This document shows, piece by piece, positions 5,648-22,697 of a DNA stretch of 64,000 nt. The stretch covers positions 30,224 through 94,223 of the forward strand of contig CAILCI010000037.1 in the NCBI GenBank assembly GCA_903832625.1, written 5' to 3'. Position numbers and translations under genes: made by a program. The notes below the pieces were generated by a model. That model saw nothing but the letters and a program-made list of their open reading frames with translations, did no database searches and was not told the origin of the DNA. Each line of letters opens with the position of its first letter. The first letter of the stretch is position 1. Source of the DNA: an uncultured Burkholderiales bacterium (GTDB taxonomy: Bacteria; Pseudomonadota; Gammaproteobacteria; Burkholderiales; Burkholderiaceae_C).

Positions 5648-6406
5648 TCAACGCGCTGCTGCTGCGATGATGGTCAAAAAGTCTGCGCTCTTGAGGGCTG
5701 CGCCCCCGATCAAGCCGCCGTCAATGTCGGCTTGCGCCAACAACTCGGCTGCATTGGCCGCGTTCATGCTGCCGCCGTACAAAATTTGCACGCGATCAGA
5801 ATGCTCGGTGGCCGCTTTGAGCTGCGCTCGCAACACAGCATGCACCGCTTGCGCTTGCTCGGGCGTTGCGGTTTTGCCGGTGCCAATCGCCCACACGGGC
5901 TCATAAGCCACGACGATTTCGCTGATGCAGTGGCCGTTGGCGTGAATCACAGCCGCCAATTGGCGCTTGACCACTTCTTCGGTTTTGCCTGCTTCGCGCT
6001 CGGCCAAGGTCTCACCCACACACACAATCGGCGTGATGCCTGCGGCCAAGGCGCGTTGCGCTTTGGCTGCCACTAAAGCATCGGTTTCCGCATGGTATTG
6101 ACGGCGCTCCGAGTGACCGACGATGGCGTAACGCACGCCAAAATCTTTCAGCATGGCACAAGAAATTTCGCCTGTGTACGCACCCTGCTCTTGTGCCGAC
6201 ACATCTTGCGAACCCAGCTCAATGCCGCTGCCCTGCGTGATCTGCTGCACCTGCGACAAATACGCCGCTGGCACACACACCGCTACTTGCGCTTTGCGCC
6301 CATTGAAAGCTTGCGCCAAACCGTGTTGTATCCCGCCCAGCAAAGCAGCATTGGCCGCCAAGCTGCCGTTCATCTTCCAATTGCCTGCAATGAGTTTTTG
6401 CTTCAT
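5648..6406 (-). CDS. tpiA: Triose-phosphate isomerase
   Basis: [38 protein letters not shown] motifs; start trimmed to MKQKLIAG. Confidence 0.97.
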
Positions 6407-11514: not shown

Positions 11515-12543
11515 TTATTTATCGACCAAATTCCACCTCGGCCACACATCAAACCCATAGTCGTACTGCGCCACTGCTTTGTTGGCTTGCAAGCGCATGG
11601 CCGCAGCCATGGCAATCATGGCGCCGTTGTCGGTACACAAATGCAGTTCGGGGTAATGCACGCGCACGCCGCGTTTGGCGCAGGCGGCGTTGAGTTGGGC
11701 GCGCAGTTGTCGGTTCGCGCCGACGCCGCCAGCCACCACCAAGCGTTGCAAGCCGGTTTGCTGCAAAGCGGCGAGTGACTTTTTGAGCAACACCTCCACA
11801 ATCGCAGCTTCGGTAGACGCTGCCAAATCGGCCTTGCGCGCTTGCAGTTGCTCGCCCAATTTTTGGCTTTGGGTGAGTACCGCTGTTTTGAGTCCGGCAA
11901 AAGAAAAATCCAGATCGCCGCTGTGCAGCAAGGGGCGGGGCAGCTTGAACGCCGTTGGATCGCCCTGCTCGGCCAGCTTGGACAACAGTGGCCCGCCCGG
12001 ATATGCCAAGCCCATGAGCTTGGCTGATTTGTCAAACGCCTCGCCCGCCGCGTCGTCGATGGTTTCGCCCAGCAAAGCATAGTCGCCCACACCGTCCACC
12101 CGCATGAGTTGGGTGTGTCCGCCCGAAACCAACAAGGCCACAAACGGAAATTCTGGCGCGTCGGCGCTCAAAAATGGCGACAGCAAATGCCCTTCCAAAT
12201 GGTGAACGCCCAGCACAGGTTTGCCCAGCGACGCGCCCAAGGCACAGGCCACGCCCGCCCCCACCAGCAAGGCACCCGCCAAGCCGGGGCCTCGGGTGTA
12301 GGCCACCACATCCACCTCGGTCAAGGTTTTTTCGGCTTGCGCCAAGACCTCACGCGCGAGCGGAATGACACGGCGAATGTGATCGCGGCTGGCCAACTCA
12401 GGCACCACGCCGCCATAGGCTTGGTGCATGGCAATTTGGCTGTGCAAAGCGTGCGATAGCAGCACCGGCAAGCCCGCGCTTTGGGTTTGCACCAGCGCCA
12501 CGCCAGTTTCGTCGCAAGACGATTCAATTCCTAAGATCAACAT
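11515..12543 (-). CDS. tsaD: tRNA N6-adenosine threonylcarbamoyltransferase TsaD
   Basis: [50 protein letters not shown] motifs. Confidence 0.97.
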
Positions 12544-12582
12544 AGCCCCCGAGTTTATGCGCTTGCGCGACAATGGCGGGCT

Positions 12583-13500
12583 ATGTCAATCAGCGCTTAC
12601 ATCAAAGAAATTGGCCGTGGCCGCGATGGCGCACGCGCGCTCACACGCGAACAAGCGGCAGATTTGATGGGCCAAGTGCTCGACCAAAACGTGTCCGATT
12701 TAGAAATCGGCGCATTTTGCTTGGCCATGCGCATCAAAGGCGAAACAGCGGCTGAAATGGCGGGCTTTTTAGACGCCGCACATGCGCGGCTCAACAACAT
12801 TCAGATCGCGCCCCATACCGATTGCGTGGTGCTGCCGAGCTACAACGGCGCTCGCAAACTACCTGTGCTCACGCCCTTGCTGGCGCATTTGTTGGCGCGT
12901 CAAGGCGTGGCCGTGGTCATGCACGGCACGCCGACCGAAAACAGCCGCGTCTCCAGCCTGTCCGTGCTGCAAGCCATGAAAGACGCTGCGTTCACGATGG
13001 CGAAAGCGCCAGCCCATGCGGTCTGCAGCGGCGAGGTGGTATTTGCGCCCACCGAGGTGCTCTGCCCCGGACTTAAAGCTTTGCTGGACGTGCGCCGCGT
13101 GGTGGGCTTGCGCAACAGCGCACACAGTTTGGTCAAGCTGATGAACCCCAGCACCAGCGCCAAAGCTTTGCTGCTGAGCAGCTACACCCACCCCGAATAC
13201 GCCGTGTCCATGGCCGAAACCTTGGCATTGACCCACACCCGCGCCCTGCTTTTGCGCGGCACCGAAGGCGAAGCCGTGGCCGATGCGCGGCGGCAACCGC
13301 AAATGGACGCCTTTGTCGCTGGCACTCGCACCACTTTGCTCGAAGCGCAAAGCGGCAGCTTGACGCAGTTGCCCGATTTGCCTGCCTTGGACGCGCAGGC
13401 CACGGCGCAGTACATTCAAGCGGTGCTGGCAGGCAACTTGCCCACGCCCGCGCCGATTGCAGCCCAAGTGCAAGCGGTGCTGAAAGCCCTGACTCTTTGA
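12583..13500 (+). CDS. ybiB: DNA-binding protein YbiB (TrpD2/anthranilate phosphoribosyltransferase-like)
   Basis: [55 protein letters not shown]. Confidence 0.88.
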
Positions 13501-13505
13501 AGCTT

Positions 13506-14276
13506 ATGAACCACCCTCACATCACCTTGGTAGGCGCAGGTCCCGGCGACCCCGAATTGCTCACCCTGAAAGCCGTCAAGGCCATTGCCAGCGCCAGCGT
13601 CTTGCTGGTGGACGATTTGGTCAGCGACGAAGTGCTCGCCCACGCCGCGCCCAGCGCCCGCGTGGTGCATGTGGGCAAGCGCGGCGGCTGCACGTCAACG
13701 CCGCAAAGTTTTATCCAAAAAATGATGGTGCAAGAAGCCCAGAGCGGCGAGCGCGTCGTGCGCCTCAAAGGCGGCGACCCATTTATTTTTGGTCGCGGTG
13801 GCGAAGAAGTCGCCTATCTGCAAAGCCACGGCATTGCGGTGACGGTGATCAACGGCATCACGGCGGGCTTGGCCGGCATGACCTCGCTCAATGTGTCGCT
13901 GACCCACCGCGATCATGCGCATGGCGTCGTCTTCATCACCGGACACGCCGCACCCGATAGCGCTCAAGCCGTCGATTGGGCGCAGCTCGCCCGCACCGCC
14001 GCGCAAGCCAAACTCACACTGGTGATTTACATGGGCATGAAAGGCGCAGCCCAGTTGCAAGCCGATTTGCTGCAAGGCATGGCCGCCAGCACGCCTGTGG
14101 CGGTCATCCATCAAGTCAGCCTGCCCGAGCAGCGCCATATCGTGTCCAGCTTGGGCGAAATGTGCGCCAGCATTGCGCAGGCGCAACTGGGCAGTCCTTC
14201 GGTCATTGTGGTGGGCGACGTCTTGCAAGGCTTGTTGCAACTGAGCCAAGCGCCACGCACAGAAAAAAGCGCATGA
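13506..14276 (+). CDS. cobA: Uroporphyrinogen-III C-methyltransferase
   Basis: LVGAGPGDPELLTLKAVK, RLKGGDPFIFGRGGEE motifs. Confidence 0.94.
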   Translation: MNHPHITLVGAGPGDPELLTLKAVKAIASASVLLVDDLVSDEVLAHAAPSARVVHVGKRGGCTSTPQSFIQKMMVQEAQSGERVVRLKGGDPFIFGRGGEEVAYLQSHGIAVTVINGITAGLAGMTSLNVSLTHRDHAHGVVFITGHAAPDSAQAVDWAQLARTAAQAKLTLVIYMGMKGAAQLQADLLQGMAASTPVAVIHQVSLPEQRHIVSSLGEMCASIAQAQLGSPSVIVVGDVLQGLLQLSQAPRTEKSA

Positions 14277-15514
14277 AAAGCTTTGACGCCATCATCGTGG
14301 GCGGTGGCGCTGCGGGCTTGTTTTGCGCAGGCGTGGCGGCGCAATTGGGCTTGAAGATTTTGCTGATCGACCACAGCGCCAAAGTGGCCGAAAAAATCCG
14401 CATCTCCGGCGGCGGCAGAAGCAACTTCACCAACCGCGAGTTGGATGTGCGCGCGCCACACACCCATTTTTTGGGCGAGAACCCCCAGTTTTGCCGCAGC
14501 GCACTCTCGCGCTACACACCGCAGCATTTCGTTGACTTGGTCAAGCGACACGGCATTGCGTTTCATGAAAAACACAAAGGCCAATTGTTTTGCGACCACA
14601 GCTCGCAAGACCTGATCGACATGCTGCTGCGCGAATGCGAGGCCAGCACCAACGGCGGGCAAGTCACGCGCTGGCAGTCGTGCAAAGTTGCAGCCGTGCG
14701 CCACCATGAGGGACAAGCGCAACGCTACGAACTCGACACCACGCAAGGCACCGTCAGCGCGGCCTCGCTGGTGATTGCCACGGGCGGTTTGTCCATCCCG
14801 CAAATTGGTGCCAGCGACTGGGGCTTTGAAATCGCCAAACAATTTGGCCTGCGCGTCGTCACGCCGCGACCGGGTTTGGTGCCGCTCACCTTTGACGCTG
14901 CGGCTTGGGCGCCCTACGCGCAGCTGTCGGGCTTGTCCTTGCCCGTGCGCCTTGAGACGGGTGACAAAAAAATACGCCAAAGTTTCAACGAAGATTTGTT
15001 GCTCACCCACCGCGGTCTGTCGGGCCCGGGCGTGCTGCAAATTTCAAGCTATTGGCAGCCGGGCGCAGACATTCGCATCAACCTCGCGCCAGAAATCGAT
15101 GTGCAAGCGGCTTTGCTGGCCGCCAAACAACATTCCAAAAAACGCATTGCCAACGAACTCAGCGCTTGGCTGCCGTCGCGCTTGGCCGACACCTGGGCCG
15201 CGCAAGACAGCGCTTGGCAGCGCCCTGTCATCGAAGCCAGCGACAAAGCCTTGGTGCAACTGGCCGAGCGCTTGAGCCGCTGGACGCTCACGCCCACAGG
15301 CACCGAGGGCTACAAAAAAGCCGAAGTCACGGTGGGCGGCGTGAGCACGCGAGACTTGTCGCAGCAGACCATGGAGTCCAAGCAAGCGGGGCTTTATTTC
15401 ATTGGCGAAGTGGTCGATATCACGGGCTGGTTGGGCGGCTACAACTTCCAATGGGCATGGGCGAGCGGCTTCGCGTGTGCACAGGGCTTGGCAGCTTCAA
15501 AAAGCCCGCTATAA
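14273..15514 (+). CDS. NAD(P)/FAD-dependent oxidoreductase, HI0933/YhiN family
   Basis: MKSFDAIIVGGGAAGLFCAGVAAQLG...KIRISGGGRSNFTN; start trimmed to the ATG overlapping the cobA stop (ATGA). Confidence 0.9.
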   Translation: MKSFDAIIVGGGAAGLFCAGVAAQLGLKILLIDHSAKVAEKIRISGGGRSNFTNRELDVRAPHTHFLGENPQFCRSALSRYTPQHFVDLVKRHGIAFHEKHKGQLFCDHSSQDLIDMLLRECEASTNGGQVTRWQSCKVAAVRHHEGQAQRYELDTTQGTVSAASLVIATGGLSIPQIGASDWGFEIAKQFGLRVVTPRPGLVPLTFDAAAWAPYAQLSGLSLPVRLETGDKKIRQSFNEDLLLTHRGLSGPGVLQISSYWQPGADIRINLAPEIDVQAALLAAKQHSKKRIANELSAWLPSRLADTWAAQDSAWQRPVIEASDKALVQLAERLSRWTLTPTGTEGYKKAEVTVGGVSTRDLSQQTMESKQAGLYFIGEVVDITGWLGGYNFQWAWASGFACAQGLAASKSPL

Positions 15515-15515
15515 T
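15488..15515 (+). promoter_or_regulatory. Candidate sigma70 promoter for rpsU
   Basis: TTGGCA (15488-15493), 16-nt spacer, TATAAT (15510-15515) about 125 bp upstream of rpsU; the -10 contains the upstream gene's TAA stop. Confidence 0.65.
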
Positions 15516-15639
15516 GCTAGGCTTTGCTGGCAAACCCCCGACGGCCTGATCAACTTAATGTCGGGGAAGACCGCAGACACGGCTCCCAAGCACGATCTTC
15601 TTGTGAACCCTCTGTTTGCACATTCGGAAACATTGTTTA

Positions 15640-15852
15640 ATGACCACCATTCGCGTAAAAGAAAACGAACCGTTTGACGTCGCTCTGCGCCGCTTCAAAC
15701 GCACCATTGAAAAATTGGGTCTGTTGACCGACTTGCGTGCGCGCGAGTTCTATGAAAAGCCAACAGCAGAGCGCAAACGCAAAAAAGCGGCCGCCGTCAA
15801 GCGCCACTACAAGCGTGTGCGCAGCATGCAATTGCCCAAGAAGCTGTATTGA
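15640..15852 (+). CDS. rpsU: 30S ribosomal protein S21
   Basis: [59 protein letters not shown]. Confidence 0.98.
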
Positions 15853-15880
15853 TCAGCCCCAGCGTTCGCTGGTAAAAACA

Positions 15881-15913
15881 AGCTCGCTAGGGACGCCTCA
15901 GCGGGCTTTTTTT
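15881..15913 (+). terminator. Intrinsic terminator downstream of rpsU
   Basis: AGCTCGCT-N11-AGCGGGCT followed by a T run. Confidence 0.75.
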
Positions 15914-15947
15914 ATTCCCATTTTCATTCCCTCACACTGGATTCACC

Positions 15948-16409
15948 ATGAGCCTCAAAGACCAAATCACCGAAGACATGAAAACCGCCATGCGCGCCAA
16001 AGACACAGCACGCTTGGGCGCGATCCGCTTGTTGCAAGCCGCCATCAAACAAAAAGAAGTCGATGAACGCGTGACTGTGGACGACGCCATGGTCATCGCC
16101 ATCGTGGACAAACTCATCAAGCAACGCAAAGACTCGGTGGACGCTTATGTCAAAGCTGCGCGTCAAGACTTGGCCGACATTGAAATTGCCGAAATGAAAG
16201 TGCTCGAAGTCTATTTACCCCAACGCCTCTCGGGCGAAGAAATCACGGCCGCCGTGCAAGCCATCGTCGCGCAAGTCAGCGCCGAGCTGGGCCGCGCAGC
16301 CGCAGCGGGCGACATGGGCAAGATCATGGGCGCAGTCAAAACCCAATTGGCAGGCAAAGCCGACATGGGCTTGGTCTCGGCAGCGGTCAAAGCAGCGCTG
16401 GCGGGGTGA
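15948..16409 (+). CDS. yqeY: GatB/YqeY domain-containing protein
   Basis: MSLKDQITEDMKTAMRAKDTARLGAIRLLQAAIKQKEVDERV; downstream of rpsU. Confidence 0.93.
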   Translation: MSLKDQITEDMKTAMRAKDTARLGAIRLLQAAIKQKEVDERVTVDDAMVIAIVDKLIKQRKDSVDAYVKAARQDLADIEIAEMKVLEVYLPQRLSGEEITAAVQAIVAQVSAELGRAAAAGDMGKIMGAVKTQLAGKADMGLVSAAVKAALAG

Positions 16410-16452
16410 TCTAAAAATTACTAGAACTTTTTAGCTATTTGTTTTAAGATTT

Positions 16453-16478
16453 CCTCTCGCCAAAAAATTGGCCAGAGG
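16453..16478 (+). promoter_or_regulatory. Hairpin sequestering the Shine-Dalgarno of the following small ORF
   Basis: CCTCT-C-GCCAA-AAAA-TTGGC-C-AGAGG: 10 bp with one C.C mismatch and AAAA loop; AGAGG is the SD 7 nt before ATG 16486. Confidence 0.55.
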
Positions 16479-16485
16479 ATGTTGA

Positions 16486-16584
16486 ATGAAGCAAGCCAGC
16501 GAGACTGTTCCCGTCAAGGCCAGCGTGCCACCCAAACGCCCGCCACCTCCCCCACCCCCAAGAAACGCGAAAGGCCAATCATGA
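16486..16584 (+). CDS. Proline-rich small protein (32 aa), MKQASETVPVKASVPPKRPPPPPPPRNAKGQS
   Basis: ATG with AGAGGA SD upstream; stop TGA overlaps the downstream ATG (ATGA at 16581-16584); not in the supplied ORF track. Confidence 0.6.
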   Translation: MKQASETVPVKASVPPKRPPPPPPPRNAKGQS

Positions 16585-17045
16585 ACAACCCACGCTACGA
16601 AACGCTTTTTTCAATTCGTTATGCGATTCGCGTGCATGAGAGAAGCTTGGCTTTTTGGGGCGCAATGGCAAATTTGCTCAAACTCATGTCAATCTTGAGC
16701 GGGTCAGCGGCCCTGATGTCGGTGGTCGGCGCTGAATCCAACACGGCTGTGTTTTTGGGGCTGGCGTTTGCTTTTTTCCAGGCACTTGAGTACAGCTTTC
16801 ATCCCACGGACAAAAGATACCAAGCGCTGGTTCAACGCAAAGTATTTGCCCAGTTGTACGCCAAACAAGCCAAATTCGACGACCAAGCGCTTGAAACGAC
16901 TTACCGTGAATTGGTTGCCGAAGATGAAACCACGCCCTTGAACGCCCTCAAAGAACTGGCCTACAACGATGTGGTCAAAGAACAAGGCAGCGACGAGTCG
17001 TATTGCTTTGCCAACAAGCATGTCTTCATGGCTGCACTGAGCTAG
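16581..17045 (+). CDS. Predicted two-TM protein with cytoplasmic helical tail (SLATT-like architecture, unproven)
   Basis: MNNPRYETLFSIRYAIRVHERSLAFWGAMANLLKLMSILSGSAALMSVVGAESNTAVFLGLAFAFFQALEYSFHPTDKRYQ; two hydrophobic segments; SD AAAGG 6 nt upstream. Confidence 0.75.
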   Translation: MNNPRYETLFSIRYAIRVHERSLAFWGAMANLLKLMSILSGSAALMSVVGAESNTAVFLGLAFAFFQALEYSFHPTDKRYQALVQRKVFAQLYAKQAKFDDQALETTYRELVAEDETTPLNALKELAYNDVVKEQGSDESYCFANKHVFMAALS

Positions 17046-17048
17046 GGC

Positions 17049-18440
17049 TTAACTCCCCGCAATCTTCATGCGGTTGATGAGCACAGAACCCACGGTTTTG
17101 GCACCCATCGTGTATTCGTCGGCACCAATGGCTTCTATGCCTTGGAACATGTCTTTCATGTTGCCTGCGATGGTGATTTCTTGCACCGGAAACGCGATGC
17201 GGCCTTTTTCCACCCAAAAGCCGCTGGCTCCGCGTGAATAGTCGCCGGTCACGTAATTCACGCCTTGGCCCATCATTTCTGTCACGAAGAGACCCGTTCC
17301 GAGTTTGCGCAACATTTCTTCCAGATCGTCGCGCTCTTGGGTTTGGCGCGAGCGCATGACCAAGTTGTGCGAGCCGCCTGCATTGCCCGTGGTTTTCATG
17401 CCAAGTTTGCGTGCTGAGTAAGTACTCAAAAAATAACCTTCAACCCGGCCTGCGTTCACCACTTTGCGCGCTTTGGTGACGACGCCTTCATCATCAAAAG
17501 GCGAGGAACCTTTGCCGCGCAACACATGCGGGTCTTCCAAAATATCGAGGTGTTTGGGAAACACTTTCTTGCCCAAGGAGTCGAGCAAAAACGTGCTTTT
17601 GCGATAGAGCGCACCTCCGCTGACGGCTTGCACAAAGCCGCCCAGCAAGCCTGCCGCCACGGGCGATTCAAACAACACCGGACATTGTGTGGTGGCGATT
17701 TTTCGGGCTTTCAAGCGGCTTAATGCGCGCTCTGCGGCGTAGCGCCCGACCTGCTCAGGAGAAGCCAATTCATCGGCCGAACGCATGGAGCTGTACCACG
17801 CATCGCGCTGCATTCCGTCGCCTTTTCCCGCAATGGGTGCAACCGAAATGCTGTGCCGCGAGCTGGCATAGCCGCCGCGAAAACCGTGGGTGTGGGCGCT
17901 GAAAAAATGGCTGTGCTGCGCCGACACGCCAGCGCCTTCGCTGTTGGTGATGCCCTTGGAAGTTTTGAGCGCAGCGGCTTCGCAACGCAAGGCGAGTTGC
18001 GCGGCATCTTCGCTGCTGATGTGCCAAGGGTGGTACAAATCCAAATCGGGATGATGCTGGGCAATGTCTGCTTCATCGGGCAAGCCAGCGACCGGGTCTT
18101 CAGCGGTGAAGCGTGCAATGTCATAGGCCGCTTGCACTGTGCGTTCAATGGCGGCGCTTGAAAAATCTGAGGTGCTGGCGTTGCCGCGTCGGTTGCCCAC
18201 ATACACCGTCACACCCAGCGATTTGTCGCGGTTGCGCTCCACATTTTCAAGCTCGCCTTTGCGCACCGACACGCTCAAGCCGTAACCTTCTGACACATCA
18301 ATGCCTGCGTTGGTCGCGCCTAATTTTTTGGCGTGCTGCAAGGCGAAGTCGGTTAAGTCTTCAAACTGTGAGCGGCTGTGGCTAAAGCCATGCGGCGTGG
18401 TTTGGGCGGAGGGTGTGGCGGTGTGGGTGGCTTTGCTCAT
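17049..18440 (-). CDS. pmbA: Metalloprotease PmbA/TldE
   Basis: ISVSEGYGLSVSVRKGELENVERNRDKSLGVTVYVGNRRGNASTSD-type TldE sequence; TGNAGGSHNLVM; start trimmed to MSKATHT. Confidence 0.95.
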   Translation of the reverse strand: MSKATHTATPSAQTTPHGFSHSRSQFEDLTDFALQHAKKLGATNAGIDVSEGYGLSVSVRKGELENVERNRDKSLGVTVYVGNRRGNASTSDFSSAAIERTVQAAYDIARFTAEDPVAGLPDEADIAQHHPDLDLYHPWHISSEDAAQLALRCEAAALKTSKGITNSEGAGVSAQHSHFFSAHTHGFRGGYASSRHSISVAPIAGKGDGMQRDAWYSSMRSADELASPEQVGRYAAERALSRLKARKIATTQCPVLFESPVAAGLLGGFVQAVSGGALYRKSTFLLDSLGKKVFPKHLDILEDPHVLRGKGSSPFDDEGVVTKARKVVNAGRVEGYFLSTYSARKLGMKTTGNAGGSHNLVMRSRQTQERDDLEEMLRKLGTGLFVTEMMGQGVNYVTGDYSRGASGFWVEKGRIAFPVQEITIAGNMKDMFQGIEAIGADEYTMGAKTVGSVLINRMKIAGS

Positions 18441-18480
18441 ATCGGCGGCTATGATACTTGGCTTACACATTTACATCTCT

Positions 18481-19140
18481 ATGTCACGAAAACCCAAAAA
18501 AGGTTATTACGTCAAAGGTCAGTTTGTTGCCGAGGGCAGCGAGCTTGATCTGGAACTCAAACGCGAGCTCAAAGGCACCGACAGCCTGAGCCGGACCGAC
18601 CGTAAACGCGAAAGCGACGAGCGCCAAGACGTGGGCGCAGAGTTGCTCACCCTGCGCTCAGATTTGAGCGAGCGCTTGCACGCCCAAGGACACATCAACG
18701 ACACACTGCGCGACGCAGTGGCCGAAGCCAAACGCATCACCAACTTCGAAGGCAAGCGCCGTCAAATGCAATACGTGGGCAAGCTCATGCGCAAGTTGAG
18801 CGATGAGGCATTTGCAGCCGTCTGCGATGCCATTACCGAGCAACGCGAAGGCTCCAGCCGAGTGACCTTGGCCTTGCACGAAGCCGAACAATGGCGCGAC
18901 CGTTTGGTCAAAGAAGACGCGGCGCTGGACGAATGGATGCAAGCCAACCCCAGCACCGACAGCCAACAATTGCGCGCCCTCATCCGCCAAGCACGCAAGG
19001 ACGACACAACCTCTAAAGCCGATGTCGCCAAAGGTTTGCTGCCGCGCCAAGGCCGCGCTTACCGTGAGATTTTTCAACTCGTCAAATCGCATCTGGGCGA
19101 GGAAGGCGATATTCCTGCGCCGGAAGACTTCGATGACTGA
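18481..19140 (+). CDS. yjgA: Ribosome biogenesis factor YjgA (DUF615)
   Basis: MSRKPKKGYYVKGQFV...RRQMQYVGKLMRKL. Confidence 0.9.
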   Translation: MSRKPKKGYYVKGQFVAEGSELDLELKRELKGTDSLSRTDRKRESDERQDVGAELLTLRSDLSERLHAQGHINDTLRDAVAEAKRITNFEGKRRQMQYVGKLMRKLSDEAFAAVCDAITEQREGSSRVTLALHEAEQWRDRLVKEDAALDEWMQANPSTDSQQLRALIRQARKDDTTSKADVAKGLLPRQGRAYREIFQLVKSHLGEEGDIPAPEDFDD

Positions 19141-19747
19141 TTGGCCCAGCCCCGACCTGCGCTGCGACGGCGTCAAAATTGGCATCGTCTCCATCAGCGA
19201 CCGCGCCTCCAGCGGCACTTACGAAGACAAAGGCCTGCCCGCGCTGCGCGAATGGCTGGCGCAGGCTTTGTACAACCCGATCGAAGAAGTCGCGCGACTC
19301 ATCCCCGACGAGCAAGCACGCATCAGTCAAACACTGATTGACTTGGCCGAGCTGGGTTGTTCGCTGATTTTGACCACTGGCGGCACGGGGCCTGCCAAGC
19401 GAGACGTCACACCAGAAGCCACACTGGCTGTGGCTGACAAGGAAATGCCAGGCTTTGGCGAGCAAATGCGCCAAATCAGCTTGCGCTTTGTGCCGACCGC
19501 GATTTTGTCGCGCCAAGTGGCGGTGATTCGAGGCAGCAGCTTGATCATCAACTTACCCGGTCAACCCAAGTCGATTCAAGAGACCCTGGGCGGCTTAAAA
19601 GACGCCGAAGGCAAGCAAGTCGTCGATGGTATTTTTGCCGCAGTGCCTTATTGCATTGATCTGATCGGTGGGCCGTATTTAGAAACGCGCGATGCGTTTT
19701 GCAAAGCCTTTCGTCCCAAAACGGCAGTTCATTCCAAGCGGGTTTAA
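19133..19747 (+). CDS. mog: Molybdopterin adenylyltransferase
   Basis: VKIGIVSISDRASSGTYEDKGLPAL, LILTTGGTGPAKRDVTPEAT motifs. Confidence 0.94.
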   Translation: MTDWPSPDLRCDGVKIGIVSISDRASSGTYEDKGLPALREWLAQALYNPIEEVARLIPDEQARISQTLIDLAELGCSLILTTGGTGPAKRDVTPEATLAVADKEMPGFGEQMRQISLRFVPTAILSRQVAVIRGSSLIINLPGQPKSIQETLGGLKDAEGKQVVDGIFAAVPYCIDLIGGPYLETRDAFCKAFRPKTAVHSKRV

Positions 19748-20160
19748 AACAGCTTTTTCAGCAGCTTTTTGATGGAATTGGTTTTCTTGGATGAAGGCGA
19801 GACCATGCGCGGTGTTTCACCCGACATGTCAAAGTAAACATCTTCAAAATGTACATTCCACTCGGGTAACTCTTGTTCAATCTCGAACAAGGGCTTGCAC
19901 TTGAGCAGCTGAAACACATAGAAATTAAAGCTCTCCACAAAGGCTGTGTATTGCGGCACAACCACGCCGTCGATGGGCTCAATATCGAGCCGCCAGCCGT
20001 GATGCAGACTTTCGCCCTCGCGCAGCAAGGTCAAAGGCGTGGTCATGGAAGAAAAGCTCACGCCATATTGTTCTAAGTCGAACACCACATAGCCCGAATA
20101 GGCTGTGGGCGACTTCATCACCACATGCAGGCGTTTGGGATGGATGTTGAGATAAATCAT
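19744..20160 (-). CDS. Hypothetical protein, 138 aa
   Basis: Full-length ORF between convergent mog and codirectional cysE; no family recognised. Confidence 0.7.
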   Translation of the reverse strand: MIYLNIHPKRLHVVMKSPTAYSGYVVFDLEQYGVSFSSMTTPLTLLREGESLHHGWRLDIEPIDGVVVPQYTAFVESFNFYVFQLLKCKPLFEIEQELPEWNVHFEDVYFDMSGETPRMVSPSSKKTNSIKKLLKKLF

Positions 20161-20163
20161 GGC

Positions 20164-20934
20164 TCAGTCCAACAATTGATTGATGCGCTCAGCCGAAAAA
20201 GTTTCTTGACGAGCGGCTTCGCTGGGGACGCAATCGCCCTTGGCCTGCATGTTGGAGAGTTTTTCAATGGCTTGCCACAGCATCGCAATTTGATGCTCTT
20301 GGCTGGAGGCGTTGTCGATCAAGCCGCGCAGCGCTTGGCTGACCGGATCGGTGTCTTCGGTAATTCCATAGGCGTTGAACTTGGGTTGCACCTGGGATAC
20401 ATCGGCACTCTCTCCTGTTTTGGATGGGATGATGCGCGCTGGAATTCCCACCGCAGTGGCGCCAGCAGGCACGGGCTTGATGACCACCGCATTGCTGCCG
20501 ATCTTGGCGTTGTCGCCCACCTCAAAGCCGCCCAGCACCTTGGCTCCCGCGCTGACGACAACATTTTTGCCAAGCGTTGGATGACGCTTGGTGCCCTTGT
20601 ACAAAGAAGTGCCGCCCAGTGTCACGCCTTGGTAGATGGTGCAACCGTCACCAATTTCGGCGGTTTCGCCCACCACCACGCCCATGGCATGGTCAAAAAA
20701 CACGCGCTGCCCAATGACAGCGGCGGGGTGAATTTCGATGCCCGTCAACCAACGCGCCACATGCGAGATGAAACGTCCCAGCCATTTGAGGCCGATTCCC
20801 CAGCAAAAATGCGCCCACCGGTGCATCACCAAGGCATGCAAACCGGGATAGCAAGTCAGCACCTCCCACAAGCTGCGCGCAGCAGGATCGCGGTCAAGAA
20901 TGCACTGAATGTCGGAGCGAAGACGAGAAAACAT
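20164..20934 (-). CDS. cysE: Serine O-acetyltransferase
   Basis: Hexapeptide-repeat acyltransferase: [45 protein letters not shown]. Confidence 0.95.
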
Positions 20935-20945
20935 AGGCCTCAAGT

Positions 20946-21704
20946 CTAGCGTTTATGGGCGGCCGCCAGCACCATGTGTTTGGCCACCCCACGCAAAATA
21001 TGTATTTCTTCCTCGCTCAAGCCTGCGCGGTTGAACAATTGGTTGAGCCGAGGCATGAGTTTTTTGGGTGTAGCGGGGTCTAAAAAACCAATCTCGGTCA
21101 GGGCTTGCTCCCAATGGCTCAACATGCCTGCGACTTGTTGCGCGTCGGCCAATGCGGGTTGGGCGGGCTGAGCAGCCAGCGCAGGCTCGCCCAAAGGCAC
21201 AGCAAAACCACCCAACGCCTGCCGCCAATCGTAGGCCAGCACCTGCACGGCAGAGGCCAAATTGAGCGAGCCGAATTTGGGGTCGGTGGGAATACTCAGA
21301 CAAGCGTGGCAGCGGTAAACGTCTTCGTTTCTCATGCCAAAGCGCTCAGAGCCAAACAAAAACGCCACGCCTTGCTGTGGTTGGCTTGTCTGCTGCGCCA
21401 CCAGAGTCGAAAAATGCTCGCGGGGCGCGAAAGTAGGCGGTCCAAAGTCGCGTGGCGTCATGGCTGTGGCGCACAGGTGGCTCACGCCGTCCAAGGCCTC
21501 ATCCAACGTATCCACGATGCGGGCGTTGTTGAGCACATCCAGTGCACCGCTGGCACGTTGGATGGTTTCTTCACGACGCAGCACGTTCGACCAACGCGGC
21601 GCGACCAACACCAAATCGGTGAATCCCATGACTTTCATGGCGCGGGCGGCTGCGCCCACATTGCCGGCGTGGCTGGTTTGAATCAGGATGAATCGGGTGT
21701 GCAT
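20946..21704 (-). CDS. trmJ: tRNA (cytidine/uridine-2'-O-)-methyltransferase TrmJ
   Basis: [38 protein letters not shown] (SPOUT). Confidence 0.93.
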
Positions 21705-21818
21705 GGGCGGTTTAGGGCAAGCGGTCACAAAAGCGTAAAATTGAGCTATTGTCGCTGCCCGCATCGCCGGCGCAGGTTTTTTAGCCCAAACGGCTCGTTG
21801 CGTTCTTCTTCACAATTT

Positions 21819-22697
21819 ATGTCGACCCCCACCACTCACCCCATGCTGAACACGGCCGTCAAGGCCGCCCGCGCTGCCGGCGCCATCATCAACCGTGCTG
21901 CCCTTGATGTCGAGGCCGTTCGTGTCTCGCAAAAGCAGGTGAATGACTTTGTCACCGAGGTCGACCAAGCCAGTGAACGCATCATCATCGAGACCTTGCT
22001 CACCGCCTATCCCGACCACGGCATCTTGGCCGAAGAATCGGGCTCGACGCACGGCAACCCCAACGCCAGCCATGTGTGGATCATCGATCCACTGGACGGC
22101 ACCACCAACTTCATCCACGGCTTTCCGGTCTATTGCGTGAGCATTGCTTTGGCGATTGACGGCAAACTCGATCAAGCCGTGGTCTATGACCCAACCCGCA
22201 ACGACCTCTTCACCGCCACCCGTGGCCGCGGCGCGTTTTTGAATGACCGCCGCATTCGCGTGAGCAAGCGCGTGCGCTTGAACGAGTGCTTGCTCTCCAC
22301 CGGATTTCCCTTCCGCCCCGAAGACGACTTCAACAAATACCTGCGCCTCATGGGCGAGATGATGCAACGCACCGCAGGCCTGCGCCGCCCCGGTGCTGCC
22401 GCGCTCGACTTGGCCTACGTGGCCGCAGGCTGGAGCGATGGATTTTTTGAACTCGGTTTACAGCCTTGGGACATGGCTGCAGGCGCGTTGCTGGTCACGG
22501 AAGCTGGCGGCTTGGTCGGCAACTTCACGGGCGAGTCCAATTTCTTGGAACAACGCGAGTGCATGGCAGCGAATTCGCGCATTTATGCCCAACTCGTGCC
22601 TCTGCTGAGTGGTTACTCCAAATTTGGCAGCGCAGACGCCAAGCGCGAAGCCAGCGAAGCAGGTAAAACCTTGAGCTTGTCGGGCAAAAACGACTGA
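21819..22697 (+). CDS. suhB: Inositol monophosphatase family protein
   Basis: [37 protein letters not shown] motifs. Confidence 0.95.

Follow-up and report, generated by a model that had tools for sequence, protein, structure and literature searches.

A proline-rich microprotein gene overlapping a SLATT-fold membrane protein gene, a probable phage-exclusion cassette inserted between yqeY and pmbA

Two overlapping genes between yqeY and pmbA

The window analysed here is a stretch of 64,000 nucleotides from an uncultured Burkholderiales bacterium. Between yqeY (15948-16409, + strand) and pmbA (17049-18470, - strand) it contains an inserted segment (16410-17048) that the related genomes examined do not have at this site. 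The segment comprises an AT-rich leader of 32% GC, running from the yqeY stop codon to the first inserted gene (16410-16485), and two genes on the + strand. The first gene (16486-16584) encodes a basic, proline-rich microprotein of 32 residues, MKQASETVPVKASVPPKRPPPPPPPRNAKGQS, with a net charge of +5. Its family-conserved part is the poly-proline tract PPKRPPPPPPP (16528-16560, + strand), followed by the basic C-terminal tail RNAKGQS. The second gene (16581-17045) encodes a 154-residue protein with two predicted transmembrane (TM) helices and a predicted SLATT fold, which is a relative of the phage family phrog_11791. Each gene has its own Shine-Dalgarno (SD) sequence: AGAGG (16474-16478, + strand) lies 7 nt before the ATG at 16486, and AAAGG (16570-16574, + strand), within the end of the proline-rich ORF, lies 6 nt before the ATG at 16581. 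The TGA stop codon of the first gene (16582-16584) overlaps the ATG of the second (16581-16583) in an ATGA arrangement. The two ORFs were found exactly where the original prediction, made from the bare sequence, had placed them, with an SD sequence for each and the ATGA overlap. An alternative ATG at 16479 would give an N-extended two-TM protein of 188 residues; it is unlikely to be used as a start because it abuts the SD sequence.

The locus is single-copy in its genome. No sigma-70 site was recognised in the leader (16410-16485). The pair also lies behind rpsU-yqeY on the same strand, so that it may be expressed by read-through from this operon. The leader harbors a perfect dyad, CCTCTcgCCAAaaaaTTGGccAGAGG (16453-16478), which could act as RNA, in a hairpin where the SD of the proline-rich ORF is base-paired, or as DNA, in an operator-like palindrome. 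The predicted hairpin is strong (z -3.4, with a second figure of z -3.7) and the dyad is the sole copy in the genome. It might serve the window copy alone, as an operator or as a translational switch; since a dyad over this SD is not conserved in relatives, it is placed outside the general mechanism discussed below. A match of the region to the Rfam family SAM_alpha (E 0.71, below gathering, opposite strand) was regarded as noise.

Where the pair is missing, yqeY and pmbA are only 23-94 nt apart in several relatives and 150-380 nt apart in some, whereas the pair occupies this gap in the window. This bears out the earlier suggestion of an inserted cassette: the pair is here a stand-alone chromosomal cassette, and it is horizontally mobile. 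The same gap holds other material elsewhere. Seven same-genus loci (L062, L064-L066, L069, L070, L073) have a gene for a PotA-like ABC transporter ATPase in it, and two more (L047, L053) have short ORFs from apparently repeated intergenic elements.

Topology and fold of the two-TM protein

TM1 is predicted at about residues 28-50 (16662-16730, + strand) and TM2 at about residues 53-73 (16737-16799, + strand). The N-flank of TM1 and the C-flank of TM2 are positively charged, and both the N-terminus and the helical C-terminal domain are predicted to be cytosolic. An AlphaFold2 model computed from a 16-row alignment (pLDDT 83.1, pTM 0.73) has a long N-terminal helix running into the TM hairpin, with a helical tail after it. 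Hydropathy and the model thus agree on the two N-terminal hydrophobic helices and helical tail first read from the translation.

We compared the model with viral structures using Foldseek. The top match was a SLATT protein of Pithovirus LCPAC406 (probability 1.00, TM-score 0.73, E 5.9e-3), and most of the named matches in the top 20 are annotated as SLATT; this best E is modest, as for small all-helical membrane proteins. Sequence and Foldseek searches of the PDB gave no significant match. Among profile collections, Pfam and PADLOC had no match for the window protein, and PADLOC none for the pair. NCBIfam returned SLATT_4 only (E=0.084, 12.7 bits versus a cut-off of 55), and PHROGs returned phrog_11791 (4.5e-14) and phrog_6315 (1.9e-5), both of function unknown. 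The proline-rich ORF had no PHROG match. SLATT_4 and SLATT_1 are also the commonest weak matches among the relatives described below, SLATT_4 in 11 of 16 and SLATT_1 in five, all below cut-off. The best of these were NF033632 (E 7.8e-4), NF033634 (18 versus 41 bits) and PF18181 (13.8 versus 26.3 bits), and no family member, the window protein included, passes a curated SLATT cut-off. The SLATT resemblance proposed in the original prediction is thus seen in the fold and in these weak profile matches. Because the fold matches but every HMM score falls below its cut-off, we refer to the protein, on the strength of its model, as SLATT-fold and place it outside the curated SLATT families.

Used alone as query, the window protein had no match in 101 relatives (its own genome aside), phages, plasmids, or viral and genome contigs, so that the PHROG profile and the relatives it yielded were needed to find homologues. 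The phrog_11791 search revealed distant relatives in related genomes (13-18% identical), in Pseudomonas phage TC7, and on Klebsiella, Rhizobium and Allorhizobium plasmids. The TC7 protein matches phrog_11791 at 1.2e-70; the family, to which the TC7 and window proteins are both matched, is recorded with neither a function nor a proline-rich partner. The final set includes 44 relatives in 16 lineages, grouped at 45% identity. The closest copy to that of the window is on a prophage (L126), with 37% identity over 137 residues and the same length. Carriage is about 2-3% of the genomes sampled (5/300, 7/369 and 9/299, with one chance match removed). A candidate relative with E 9.6e-4 (L113) was judged a chance match, as were some weak matches to SLATT models (for example L099 and L101-L103, in long ORFs).

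SLATT proteins are predicted pore-forming effectors (PMC7159879). The DRT10 defence system requires its SLATT gene (PMC12632851), and an RT-associated SLATT has been noted in one further paper (PMC9122126). With the known SLATT effectors (SLATT_1, PF18181; SLATT_4, PF18186/NF033632; partners of CD-NTase, SLOG, GAP1 and DRT9/DRT10) the two-TM protein shares the long N-terminal helix, two-TM hairpin and helical cytosolic tail, the fold and weak HMM matches, and an accessory distribution. It differs from them in lying below every curated cut-off and in having no nucleotide-signal or reverse transcriptase (RT) partner gene adjacent. No SMODS, SLOG, GAP1 or RT gene was found beside the window pair, whose neighbours are rpsU, yqeY and pmbA, or beside the relatives, whose neighbours, as read from translations, are repressor, plasmid and housekeeping genes. 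Likewise, no CD-NTase gene of CBASS was recognised among the ORFs of window positions 12000-22000 or in the neighbourhoods read.

The proline-rich partner across lineages

Since the relatives were gathered from the membrane protein alone, the presence of a proline-rich ORF upstream of them is an independent test of the pairing. A small ORF with a C-terminal polyproline-plus-basic motif, a motif defined after most of the set had been seen, lies directly upstream in 15 of 16 lineages, compared with 50 of 461 (11%) control genes taken from the window and the collected loci (Fisher p=3e-13). Plain proline counts gave 35/38 against 54/481 controls. A small proline-tailed ORF sits directly upstream in each of the first four relatives, in every one of the 17 TC7-like viral contigs and in loci L074-L078, whereas L079 looks frameshifted. 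Of the four copies on phage or plasmids three have it too, and the Klebsiella plasmid shows a milder version. A later phylum-wide search added six more out of six (L106-L110 and L114). The ORF is absent from 14 of 14 loci matching the SLATT_1 or SLATT_4 models, several of these matches being weak or below cut-off, and its presence further distinguishes the pair from known SLATT effectors. The small ORF is thus a conserved partner of the two-TM gene, as had been proposed, and the pairing held when homologues without an upstream proline-rich ORF were looked for. All 21 peptides examined carry a net positive charge, and the partner peptide of a prophage copy (L084/L019) has a run of 22 consecutive prolines. 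A likeness to proline-rich antimicrobial peptides was set aside, as no signal sequence was seen in the proline-rich peptide.

The peptide gene is under purifying selection. In 14 distinct viral, TC7-like copies, its pN/pS is 0.35, versus 0.24 for the two-TM gene, and in the TC7-like copies variability at first, second and third codon positions is 0.17/0.17/0.50, about three-fold higher at the third. In the final 18 codons of the L007 group, a second lineage, variation was seen at 4 first, 3 second and 16 third codon positions. The conserved C-terminus reads GPNTISESRPVPPPPRRDP, and non-proline residues (NTISESRP...) are kept at the amino-acid level while third positions vary. In the window, the ORF is the only one among 630 of 25-80 residues with at least 10 prolines in the last 30 residues. 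Together with the recurrence across lineages and the coding pattern, this shows that the window copy is no chance ORF.

These patterns bear on whether the peptide itself matters. The proline-rich ORF might instead be a cis-acting leader, in which EF-P dependent ribosome pausing on polyproline before the overlap sets translation of the two-TM gene and the peptide is functionless. Such pausing would suit the position of the polyproline tract, near the stop codon and beside the SD of the two-TM gene in nearly all copies, and the ATGA-type overlaps or very short gaps between the two genes in most of them. A functionless peptide fits poorly with the conservation of its non-proline residues as amino acids. 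Moreover, PPP is not universal (PVPPRPKRDP, DPVPPKPKN and APPDPLPTK occur), the gap reaches 54-83 nt in L018 and L019, and RNA structure around the SD of the two-TM gene is not unusual (z -1.1), which leaves a leader-attenuator hairpin at that site unsupported. Because of the conserved residues, the absence of PPP from some copies and the ordinary RNA structure, we consider the cis-acting leader unlikely.

Two observations concern individual copies. In TC7 (MG707188.1; L008, 5917-6540), TC7_041 has been annotated from a start too far upstream, so that it spans the proline-rich gene, which itself has no annotation; the likely start is at 6001. Reading frames are broken in L021/L025, L022 and L079, by a split or stopped two-TM gene or an apparently shifted proline-rich ORF, which suggests that loss is tolerated.

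Genomic context and a possible role in phage exclusion

In phage TC7 the pair follows the gene for repressor C. All 17 related viral contigs have a same-strand repressor gene upstream, of several types that include exchanged N-terminal domains. On the L126 prophage the pair begins 30 nt after the phage repressor, and L007, L075 and L084 likewise have a repressor upstream, in some cases with small ORFs between. According to Pfam and PHROGs, representative upstream genes are S24/HTH or phage repressors. This same-strand position downstream of a repressor was seen in relatives and not in the window, whose copy has lost its repressor neighbour or never had one. Other copies are on plasmids, have a caspase-domain gene (L010) or a DNA methylase gene (L081) as neighbour, or stand alone in chromosomes.

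Two phage-exclusion loci, rexAB (PMC11077077) and bstA (PMC8585504), are placed behind phage or prophage repressors. The pair is reminiscent of lambda RexAB in being a two-gene unit downstream of a repressor with one inner-membrane product. RexAB, however, combines a 31-kDa DNA-binding protein, RexA, with RexB and its four TM helices (PMC11077077), whereas the pair consists of a 32-residue peptide and a two-TM protein, and no sequence relation between the two systems was seen. The bstA gene, too, lies downstream of prophage repressors in a range of Gram-negative bacteria, and some copies are on plasmids or independent of prophages (PMC8585504). In contrast to the pair, BstA acts at phage DNA replication sites with self-immunity conferred by a DNA element, and neither a two-TM architecture nor a proline-rich partner is described for it (PMC8585504). 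We found no earlier description of the pair in the open-access literature searched.

The original prediction suggested that the pair might serve in defence or stress, and the repressor genes adjoining its relatives strengthen this suggestion. On balance, and with slightly more confidence than doubt, we read the pair as a translationally coupled, mobile, two-gene exclusion module that came from temperate phages, with a SLATT-fold effector controlled by a cognate proline-rich microprotein. Counted against this reading is the window copy itself, which has neither a repressor neighbour nor a recognisable promoter. In such a module, the second gene would supply a protein of the inner membrane whose two-TM hairpin leaves both ends in the cytosol, and the first a short basic peptide as its dedicated partner. 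Prophage copies, lying just behind the repressor gene, are probably expressed in lysogens, where the pair would probably act as a superinfection-exclusion or abortive-infection device. Most likely, the peptide, made first, would use its polyproline/basic C-terminus to bind the helical domain in the cytosol, and the membrane protein would stay inactive or poised as a result. Infection by a foreign phage would then bring some event that disturbs this contact, and the released SLATT protein might open or depolarise the membrane and stop the phage. The gene order and coupling would fit a controller that is made first, and contact between the basic peptide and the cytosolic tail would be possible at the inner face of the membrane; the peptide could be an inhibitor or a co-effector. 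A more specific version, to which we lend a little less than even credence, is a new kind of phage-exclusion system in which the microprotein is a dedicated sensor or inhibitor of a SLATT-fold membrane pore and neither a nucleotide second messenger nor a reverse transcriptase takes part; the system would reside in the repressor region of temperate phages across Pseudomonadota and would have spread as a free-standing cassette of about 0.6 kb.

The small basic ORF upstream of, and overlapping, a larger ORF that looks membrane-active is also a layout that fits a toxin-antitoxin or addiction pair, in which the peptide would neutralise a two-TM toxin and the pair would mainly stabilise a mobile element. 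Copies on plasmids and alone in chromosomes would suit such a role; yet the strong link is to phage immunity regions rather than to plasmid maintenance, and Pfam, NCBIfam and PADLOC gave no match to a known toxin or antitoxin family. We find an addiction pair improbable. Lysogenic-conversion genes with no link to defence can be found after a repressor, too, and being expressed there does not alone imply defence. Instead of exclusion, the pair might have a housekeeping-like task for the lysogen (an envelope, ion or stress function), and some of its neighbours are small secreted or lipoprotein-like ORFs. This account is quite unlikely, given that elsewhere the SLATT fold goes with conflict systems (PMC7159879, PMC12632851) and that a patchy distribution, in 2-3% of genomes, together with strong divergence is suggestive of an arms race. 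It is highly implausible that programmed frameshifting in the C-rich tract joins the proline-rich part and the two-TM protein into one product: the two-TM frame is indeed open through the proline-rich ORF in the window, as the 188-residue ORF from ATG 16479, but stops in that frame 12-48 nt before the ATG rule out a fusion in L004, L005, L018, L020, L024 and L126, and the two-TM gene has its own SD.

Exclusion by the SLATT-fold protein under control of its peptide thus remains our preferred reading. As the pair directly follows the repressor gene in many temperate phages, and its larger product has a SLATT-like fold, it is probably a phage-exclusion device that has gone unnoticed and has moved into the chromosome here. 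Bacterial immune systems use SLATT proteins as effectors time and again, and a minimal two-gene version, whose sole evident partner is a peptide of 30-60 residues, would make the question of what gates them directly testable. The pair also adds a microprotein family that lacks annotation in the records examined, and it marks a locus of Pseudomonas phages as a candidate for exclusion.

Three neighbourhoods have further features. On the Rhizobium plasmid pRSpC104f (L010, 3439-5579), a caspase-domain gene and a small ORF directly precede an unlisted proline-rich/two-TM pair, possibly as one larger conflict operon. In L081 (4999-8039), the pair and a gene encoding an N6/N4 DNA methylase domain are divergently oriented, which may point to a restriction-modification system. 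Finally, in L003 (1993-2922) a transposase-like ORF, judged by eye to be of the IS1595 type, lies directly beside the pair.
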